Below, in pieces: positions 61,441-63,891 of a stretch of DNA of 64,000 nucleotides. The stretch is from assembly GCA_015064485.1 (NCBI GenBank), contig SVSD01000007.1, positions 1-64,000 of the forward strand, written 5' to 3'. Every line of letters begins with the position of its first letter. The first letter of the stretch is position 1. The DNA is from Oscillospiraceae bacterium. GTDB taxonomy: Bacteria > Bacillota > Clostridia > Oscillospirales > CAG-382. Below the pieces are notes generated by a model that saw nothing but the letters and a program-made list of their open reading frames with translations, did not search any database and was not told the origin of the DNA. The position numbers and the translations under genes are program-made.

Positions 61441-61463
61441 TATAATCTCCAAAATAAAAAATA

Positions 61464-61484
61464 TGCGGCTGAAATACAGCCACA
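61464..61484 (-). terminator. Terminator of the SpoIIM-like/XerD-like operon
   Basis: On the minus strand TGTGGCTG pairs with CAGCCGCA (one G-U) and is followed by TATTTTTTATTTT. Confidence 0.75.
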
Positions 61485-61546
61485 TATATTTTACTATTCA
61501 TATGTTAATATGGTATGAACATCATCATATATTATGTAAAAAAGTA

Positions 61547-62428
61547 TCAGGCACGGGGGTGAAAACTTATAAGTGCATCAGACATTTTTTGTTTAACAAA
61601 ATTAACATAAGCATTAGTTGTTGAGATATCGGAATGTCCTAAAATTTCTTTGAGCTGAAGGACATCGGCACCGTTTTCAAGAAGGTGCGTTGCAAAAGAG
61701 TGTCTCAACATTCTGGGTGAAATATCTTTTTTTATTCCTGCCTCTGTTGCGTAATGCTTTATAATTTTCCATAACCCCTGTCTTGTCATTCTTTCGCCGT
61801 TGATATTGACAAATAAAGCGGTTTCTTCAGGGTCATTTACAAGAAAGCGTCGGGAATTCAGAAGATATGAAGAAAGAAGCTTTTTAGCCTTGGGATACAA
61901 AGGTATGAAGCGTTCTTTGTTAGCGCATTTTATAAAAGACAATCGCTCGTTGAAATCTTTCAAATTAAGTTCAATAAGTTCGGTAACATTAAGTCCTGTG
62001 GCGTATAAAAGCTCAAGAATTGCTCTGTCGCGCACGGATTTTTCATCATTTCCCGAAGGCTGTCTTATAAGAAGATCAATTTCTTCTGCGGTTAAAACAT
62101 CTATTTGCTTTGCCCCTGATTTATCATTTTTAACAACTTTTGCAGGATTTGAGGTAACGAACCCTTCTCTCAACAAGTAGTTATAAAAGCTTCTGACGGA
62201 GGACAACGCTCTTGAAACACTCGAAACAGCTCGTCCGTCATCTTTGAGATAGTTTTTAAAAGACTCGATGTTTTTTGCATCAGCTTTTAAAATATCAATT
62301 CCCGCCTGTAAAATATAAAGTTCAAAACAGGAAATGTCATTGCTGTAAGCATTCAGAGTGTTTTTGGAAACACCCTTCTCGGACACAAGAAAGGATAAAA
62401 ATTCATCTTTATAATCAACGCTTACCAT
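61547..62428 (-). CDS. XerD-like tyrosine recombinase lacking three catalytic residues
   Basis: 293 residues that align end to end with XerD, including LRHSFATHLLENGAD and the C-terminal HPRA. Three of six catalytic positions are changed: Asn147 in ATGLNVTE replaces Arg, Cys168 in IKCANKER replaces Lys (Lys167 is one place away), and Arg239 in SPRMLRH replaces His. Arg242, His265 and the nucleophile Tyr274 remain. I read all three changes from the DNA. Start ATG 62428 with a perfect AGGAGG. It follows a SpoIIM-like gene, the usual context of xerD. Probably catalytically impaired, perhaps a structural partner. Confidence 0.9.
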   Translation of the reverse strand: MVSVDYKDEFLSFLVSEKGVSKNTLNAYSNDISCFELYILQAGIDILKADAKNIESFKNYLKDDGRAVSSVSRALSSVRSFYNYLLREGFVTSNPAKVVKNDKSGAKQIDVLTAEEIDLLIRQPSGNDEKSVRDRAILELLYATGLNVTELIELNLKDFNERLSFIKCANKERFIPLYPKAKKLLSSYLLNSRRFLVNDPEETALFVNINGERMTRQGLWKIIKHYATEAGIKKDISPRMLRHSFATHLLENGADVLQLKEILGHSDISTTNAYVNFVKQKMSDALISFHPRA

Positions 62429-62446
62429 AATAACACCTCCTAAACT

Positions 62447-62959
62447 TTATAAAATAATCAAGCATGCAACGCATGCAATAAAAAGTATAACTGCAAATGA
62501 AAAAATCGGAACAGTAAATCTTTTATGTTTAATAAAATACTTTGCCGAATGATGTATATGACGCAAAGAAAACAAAAAGCAAGATGCGGACATAAAGCTT
62601 AAAAATATTGAAAGAAATAAAACTAAAAATAAATATACAGAACTTGAAGTATCTGCGTCGTATACATTAAAACTGTAATTGCATAAAAGGAATGAATTCA
62701 TAAAACCGAAAATGAAAACTGCTAAAAAATCAAAAGCAGAAAACAAGCCGGAAAATGAAGACATGGCAACAAAAAGAAAAATTGCAATATCCGCTGTTAC
62801 GACTTTTGTAAAACTGATGCTGTCCGAAACGCCTTTTATAAAATAACTGTACCCGAGGCATATACCGGCAACAGTACAAAATATGAATATTCCAAACGCG
62901 ACAAAAAGAAGCTTTAATAGTCTTTTTCTGCTTGAAAAAACGCTTGTCCCAATAGTCAT
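62447..62959 (-). CDS. SpoIIM-like multi-pass membrane protein
   Basis: 170 residues with about five hydrophobic helices. The C-terminal segment FSLRHIHHSAKYFIKHKRFT followed by a last helix resembles SpoIIM, as does a GFMNSF turn in the middle. In Firmicutes spoIIM lies next to xerD, as here. SpoIIM belongs to the engulfment machinery with SpoIID and SpoIIP. The match is by pattern and context only. Start ATG 62959 with GGAGGG upstream, 18 bp before the XerD-like gene. Confidence 0.6.
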   Translation of the reverse strand: MTIGTSVFSSRKRLLKLLFVAFGIFIFCTVAGICLGYSYFIKGVSDSISFTKVVTADIAIFLFVAMSSFSGLFSAFDFLAVFIFGFMNSFLLCNYSFNVYDADTSSSVYLFLVLFLSIFLSFMSASCFLFSLRHIHHSAKYFIKHKRFTVPIFSFAVILFIACVACLIIL

Positions 62960-63090
62960 AAAATCCCTCCGATACATTAATATGCACAGAGGAATTTAAT
63001 AATTCGAACCTATGAATATGATAACTTATTTTCTTTTTGTTTTCAAGGCAAAAATGGAAAATCGAAAAAGTTTGTTAATTATGACAACTG

Positions 63091-63115
63091 ATTATGTAAA
63101 CGACATTATGTAAAC
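63091..63115. repeat. Direct repeat of ATTATGTAAAC (dif-arm-like)
   Basis: ATTATGTAAAC occurs at 63091-63101 and 63105-63115, a 14-bp period. It matches the right (XerD) arm of the Bacillus dif site as I recall it (TTATGTAAACT). No matching left arm was found. It is in a 365-bp non-coding gap upstream of the SpoIIM-like/XerD-like operon. Confidence 0.45.
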
Positions 63116-63324: not shown

Positions 63325-63891
63325 ATGATGAGCAGTATGCAAGAATATATAAATGAGTTTAAAAAAGCTATCACAAGACAAGGTTCAGCAGAGCTTCTTG
63401 AATGGATGAAAACGACTGACTTTTTTACCGCACCTGCAAGTTCAAAATTTCACAGTGCATACGAAGGCGGATTATGTGAGCACAGCCTTAATGTTTACAA
63501 GGTTATGATAAACCGTTATAACAACGGTCAACCTGATGAATCGATGGCTATCTGTGCCCTGCTCCACGATCTTTGCAAAGCGGAATTTTATAAAATTAAT
63601 TACCGCAATGTTAAAAATGAAGAAACAGGAAAATGGGAAAAAGTCCCCTACTATATGATCGAAGATAAATATCCCTTTGGTCACGGAGAAAAATCTGTAT
63701 TTCTTATTGAGCGTTTTATGAAACTCAAAATCGACGAAGCAATTTCTATCCGTTGGCATATGGGCGGTTTTGATGATGCGGTCAGAGGCGGAAGTTTTTG
63801 TGCCGGAAACACTTTTGAAAGATATCCTCTTGCTGTTATGTTACATATCGCAGATATTGAAGCCACATATCTTGTCGAAGGAAATAAATAG
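63325..63891 (+). CDS. HD-domain phosphohydrolase-like protein
   Basis: 188 residues. The HD signature is present as CEHSLNVYK, then LLHDLCKAEF, with further His in YPFGHGEKS and RWHMGG. Such proteins hydrolyse nucleotides or phosphodiesters with metal ions. Substrate unknown; some relatives act on RNA or dNTPs. The tandem ATG at 63325/63328 follows GGAGG. Own promoter and a strong terminator. Confidence 0.8.
   Translation: MMSSMQEYINEFKKAITRQGSAELLEWMKTTDFFTAPASSKFHSAYEGGLCEHSLNVYKVMINRYNNGQPDESMAICALLHDLCKAEFYKINYRNVKNEETGKWEKVPYYMIEDKYPFGHGEKSVFLIERFMKLKIDEAISIRWHMGGFDDAVRGGSFCAGNTFERYPLAVMLHIADIEATYLVEGNK

Follow-up and report, generated by a model that had tools for sequence, protein, structure and literature searches.

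The window analysed here is a 64,000-nucleotide stretch of DNA from an Oscillospiraceae bacterium (order Oscillospirales), in which a minus-strand operon carrying an xerD-like gene converges on the gene for a second, XerC-like tyrosine recombinase (Table 1). The xerD-like reading frame is free of interruptions over its 293 residues and, as had been proposed from the sequence of the window, is followed by a terminator-like hairpin of its own. The operon opens with the gene for a small membrane protein, with an ATG at 62959 preceded by GGAGGG (the longest reading frame starts at 62977). The original prediction called this gene SpoIIM-like, which holds for its position, that of a true SpoIIM in relatives, and for its membrane character, but not at the level of protein family, as the product had no Pfam match even at E<=0.1.

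Table 1. Features of the xerD operon and of the facing recombinase gene (positions in the window)
Feature	Position	Strand	Remark
XerC-like tyrosine recombinase, 334 aa	59427..60431	+	intact R-K-H-R-H-Y; convergent to xerD
Terminator-like hairpin after xerD	61461..61487	-	from sequence
xerD-like gene	61547..62428	-	293 aa; N147 C168 R239 R242 H265 Y274
Small membrane protein gene, spoIIM position, first in operon	62447..62959	-	position is that of spoIIM in relatives
Operon promoter TTGAAA-N17-TATCAT	63018..63046	-	same position relative to half-sites in relatives
Third half-site, degenerate (GTTGTCATAA; period of about 13)	63079..63088	-	similar weak element in relatives
XerD-type half-site GTTTACATAA, proximal copy (operon strand)	63092..63101	-	identical to XerD arm of B. 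subtilis dif
XerD-type half-site, distal copy	63106..63115	-	direct repeat GTTTACATAA-N4-GTTTACATAA on operon strand, 63115 to 63092; period 14

The xerD-like product resembled XerD over its full length, with XerD as its best family, and lies in the spoIIM-xerD gene context. E. coli XerD (1a0p), its best PDB match, aligned to residues 8-282 (E=4.6e-51), and the top NCBIfam model was recomb_XerD (TIGR02225; 302.5 bits, below the cut-off of 329.6; residues 8-293). The active site, in contrast to the R-K-H-R-H-Y of active enzymes, reads N-C-R-R-H-Y, and alignment confirmed that Asn147, Cys168 and Arg239 are changed while Arg242, His265 and Tyr274 are kept. In addition, the beta2-beta3 hairpin, which carries the catalytic Lys, is shortened to KCANKER, as compared with KCNKGNKER in intact clostridial relatives and CIGKGNKER in Bacillus. 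An AlphaFold model (mean pLDDT 88.6) retained the fold, with short strands at 165-168 and 173-176 and a tight turn between them. Lys167, which had been put forward as a stand-in for the missing Lys, lies within strand 165-168 of the model and not at the catalytic position.

Orthologues from related genomes showed that the changes at positions 147, 168 and 239 are shared and not unique to the strain. They are nested, as evidenced by: 1) the catalytic Lys, scored as the residue five positions before the hairpin Arg, is missing order-wide, with Lys at this position in 3/30 XerDs of the family, 1/51 of the rest of the order and 19/69 of the rest of the class; 2) Arg-I is lost family-wide, being non-Arg in all 30 XerDs of the family (Lys in 29, Asn in the window), and is mostly retained across the rest of the order; 3) the loss of His-II is confined to the window genus, where Arg, Lys or Cys replaces it. 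Asp or Glu at the catalytic-Lys position is typical of the named Lachnospiraceae XerDs, and RKHRHY is found in the XerDs of Bacilli (with one Paenibacillus exception) and of several other Clostridia. Outside the Clostridia, we also noticed the hairpin CVGSGAKER in XerD of Paenibacillus sp. HGH0039 (L289), with Ser for the catalytic Lys. On a tree of 170 sequences built without the catalytic columns, at least 15 changes were needed at the Lys position, 13 at Arg-I and 14 at His-II, indicating that residue change was repeated, although these counts depend on the alignment of a variable hairpin and cannot by themselves separate loss from gain.

Purifying selection on the gene was strong: the five close pairs of family members that could be used gave XerD dN/dS values of 0.03-0.05, from which it follows that xerD is not decaying, as originally held; decay specific to this strain was ruled out by the shared substitutions together with this ratio. 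Tyr274, Arg242 and His265 are retained nearly everywhere, A2 shows no variation at R216, Q217, R242, H265, Y274 or H290-P291, and the C-terminal HPRA as well as the catalytic-domain contacts of XerD are conserved. One may ask whether XerD still cuts DNA by way of substitute residues, such as Lys171 in the short hairpin or another Arg, given that Tyr, Arg-II and His-III remain and that the CTnDOT integrase, having moved its Arg-I, uses an alternative Arg (PMC8138268). We consider this very improbable, with three of the six residues lost and the hairpin partly gone, with no Lys or Arg near the hairpin position conserved in the order, and with an Arg-I to Lys change in the family that resembles the R225K of the Tn1549 integrase crystal construct, as named in the title of 6en2. 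The residue pattern rather suggests that XerD has lost cleavage, at least in the family of the window; nevertheless, as Tyr274, Arg242 and His265 would not obviously be needed by a non-catalytic protein, some weak residual chemistry may persist. On these grounds, the window protein is probably, if by no means certainly, a true XerD orthologue turned into a pseudo-recombinase that is kept for DNA binding, and it is misleading to annotate these degenerate genes as "site-specific tyrosine recombinase XerD".

The XerC-like protein retains all six catalytic residues, as was first noted (R169, K193, H264, R267, H291 and Y300). Its best NCBIfam family is XerC, at a score below the cut-off, and its orthology with canonical XerC is provisional. 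In the window genome (1.60 Mb in 28 contigs, 94% complete), a search with the Phage_integrase profile returned the XerD-like and XerC-like proteins only, with neither a third tyrosine recombinase nor a second intact XerD at this level of completeness. Together with the nested substitutions and the low dN/dS, this supports the original view of one intact Xer beside one pseudo-recombinase under selection. Among 297 genomes of the order, 271 have the XerC-like protein, whose active site was intact in 28/28 examined, XerD-less genomes included; XerD is present in 116 and was not found in 181. Exactly one tyrosine recombinase, the XerC-like, was found in 7 of the 22 XerD-less genomes examined, so that these relatives have a single intact Xer, whereas the window genome has a second, degenerate one. 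Where XerD is missing, spoIIM may directly face the xerC-like gene, convergent and adjacent to it (G226, G271, G311, G173, G241, G211 and G292), as exemplified by G226, with spoIIM at C2:240930-241442 facing the xerC-like gene at 241485-242441, an arrangement consistent with clean deletion of xerD. Although the absence of XerD from metagenome-assembled genomes is in part due to incompleteness, 61% absence for XerD vs. 9% for the XerC-like protein is not explained by it. In this order, xerD is dispensable and the XerC-like gene near-universal; this, and a loss of Lys that extends across the order and is also common in the rest of the class, exceed what had been predicted.

The XerD scores were bimodal, every one at E<=1e-62 but one (G316:C1:420838-421686, family f21), whose four internal stops mark it as what appears to be a recent pseudogene. 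This copy and the 181 genomes without XerD could be taken to mean that selection on xerD is relaxed and that the gene is being lost. We disfavor such a reading and give it only a very slight chance, in view of the dN/dS values, the full length of the gene and the conservation of its promoter architecture.

At the head of the operon, each copy of GTTTACATAA agrees at 10/10 positions with the XerD arm in dif of B. subtilis (ACTTCCTAGAATATATATTATGTAAACT; PMC3025954). The corresponding pattern TTWACATAA-N5-TTWACATAA occurred 50 times in the 297 genomes, as compared with 0 for the reversed control, and 45 of the 50 tandem sites sit 0.13-1.84 kb upstream of xerD on the same strand, usually as one pair per genome. 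Tandem sites were found in 47/116 XerD+ vs. 2/181 XerD- genomes (Fisher p=3.5e-20); the exact period-14 motif is thus present in 41% of XerD+ genomes, the others having different spacings or a single half-site. The half-sites keep their place at the operon head, be it proC-spoIIM-xerD (proC named by eye from sequence), spoIIM-xerD or xerD alone. Over 62 loci the geometry is fixed, with half-sites at -14 and 0, the -35 element at +50-59 and the -10 element at +70-79, and an inverted half-site peaks at +90-99 (14 matches vs. about 1 per bin); the window promoter has no inverted half-site near its expected start. An Rfam search of the promoter region returned nothing. Among the named genomes, the tandem was seen in Oscillibacter and Flavonifractor and a wider-spaced pair in Anaeromassilibacillus, with none in Bacilli.

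Several observations touch on these sites. In the window, a divergent gene (63325-63891) with a weak, below-cut-off HD-domain match shares the intergenic region of the half-sites. Genome G221 has two extra tandem pairs away from xerD (C11:399278-399300 and 406846-406868; L232, L233), and a DnaE-like gene of 1195 aa, which may be another target, begins about 25 bp downstream of the second pair. In Lachnospiraceae (L281, L307, L310 and L317), single half-sites in other orientations lie 37-234 bp upstream of xerD, and on this basis autoregulation may extend beyond Oscillospirales.

The half-sites might belong to spoIIM itself, a possibility ruled out by the comparison of xerD deletions and by operons without spoIIM. 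Upstream of spoIIM, we counted 42 half-sites in 27.5 kb with xerD vs. 2 in 29 kb without it (shuffles, about 1.2-1.4). The same data bear on the notion that GTTTACATAA, as a conserved promoter element of one operon, is bound by another transcription factor controlling that operon and matches the dif arm by coincidence. This we find clearly unlikely, as the identity to the arm is complete, the motif is gone upstream of spoIIM where only xerD is lost, and it adjoins xerD where spoIIM is absent. Alternatively, the tandem half-sites could be an SMC-unloading site that lies near xerD by chance and is no operator, since XerD of B. subtilis unloads SMC at specific sites (Karaboja 2021, cited in PMC12322038, PMC13342612 and PMC8242196). 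We regard this as unlikely: the spacing to the -35 and -10 elements is fixed and the inverted half-site falls near the expected start, the pair is usually the only one in its genome and sits at the head of the xerD operon in 45 of 50 cases, and the full arm AGTTWACATAA showed no general pattern of clustering around the terminus in 12 complete genomes. A possible cluster was seen in G229 (C1:567876-650761; L222-L226), a complete genome of 2.19 Mb whose AGTTWACATAA sites, five in total, fell within 83 kb, with three of the five within 3.7 kb, each just beside a hairpin-like repeat; GC skew at the G229 and G221 clusters was uninformative. We return to XerD as the protein that would bind the half-sites of its own promoter. 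As judged from the DNA, these cognate-type sites in a fixed geometry have the character expected of an autoregulated DNA-binding protein, and the geometry suggests autoregulation by occlusion or bridging, making control of the xerD operon by XerD probable.

The original prediction also offered dif, FtsK or a part in sporulation as possible roles for the pseudo-recombinase. Binding of dif found no support, as the canonical pattern CTANAAN6TTATGTNAA, searched as a single pattern, was present in 3/35 genomes of the order and absent from the window genome, so that no dif was assigned, and the clearest XerD-type sites are those at its own promoter. A related proposal is that the dead XerD is an obligatory partner of the XerC-like protein at a dif-type site, where it would hold its arm and shape the synapse while cutting falls to the XerC-like protein alone and some other route completes the Holliday junction. 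This is quite conceivable, though we hold it tentatively. In its favor are the conserved HPRA C-terminus and catalytic-domain contacts of XerD as well as the adjacency of xerD and the xerC-like gene in the window genus and several families, and it has a precedent in V. cholerae XerC, which integrates CTXphi with XerD not cutting (PMC5357621). Against it are the scarcity of the canonical dif pattern and the presence of the XerC-like protein without XerD in most genomes of the order.

At its widest, our reading is that in Oscillospirales, and probably in further Clostridia, XerD has become a regulator and chromosome organiser that autoregulates by bridging half-sites it leaves uncut, and that a single-recombinase system of the XerC-like protein permits the loss of xerD; we give this reading a probability of about 0.4. 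In the narrower account, which we hold to be more likely than not, the active site of XerD has eroded stepwise, with Lys lost in the order, Arg-I changed to Lys in the family, His-II lost in the genus and Asn acquired at Arg-I in the species. DNA cutting would thereby be left to the XerC-like recombinase, present without XerD in many relatives, and XerD would be retained for functions of its DNA-binding fold. Most likely it binds the tandem half-sites, which precede the predicted start of operon transcription by about 90 bp, and, in some of the relatives, also the inverted half-site near that start. It would presumably control its own synthesis in this way, by occlusion or by forming a short loop that amounts to a synapse in which nothing is cleaved. 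The main job of XerD is probably non-catalytic as well, and we surmise that it consists of SMC unloading near the terminus or of holding the partner arm beside the XerC-like protein, with dimer resolution resting on the latter, alone in many species.

Chromosome dimer resolution is taught as the work of two active recombinases, or of one of the XerS, XerH or XerA type. Instead, an intact XerC-like protein appears to serve a large group of gut Clostridia that are common, with XerD repeatedly losing its chemistry and then disappearing. If XerD is strongly selected and acts on its own promoter, these bacteria offer a natural separation of cutting from SMC unloading and regulation, and, if true, the scheme outlines how systems with two recombinases could evolve into systems with one, a route that is directly testable. 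In the open-access literature, where silence is weak evidence of absence, we found no paper on XerD sites at the promoter of XerD itself nor on loss of active-site residues of XerD in Clostridia.

Compared with known systems, the locus shares with XerCD/dif (E. coli XerCD, B. subtilis CodV/RipX) an orthologous XerD fold, the spoIIM-xerD context and a dif-arm half-site, but the window XerD is without Arg-I, Lys and His-II, the canonical dif pattern turned up in few members of the order (3 of the 35 genomes searched), and the XerC-like protein is often alone. With the SMC unloader of B. subtilis, which reportedly acts independently of its catalytic residue, it has in common a proposed XerD role without cleavage; there, however, an intact enzyme goes with sites at the terminus, whereas here a degenerate one goes with sites in its own promoter. 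As with XerS/difSL, XerH/difH and XerA, some genomes have one intact Xer as their sole tyrosine recombinase, but here this single protein is XerC-like and arises where xerD is lost or inactive. The scheme finally recalls CTXphi integration, in its half-of-the-sites chemistry with XerD as scaffold, the difference being that V. cholerae XerD is competent but blocked by its substrate, whereas in the window XerD itself has lost the residues.
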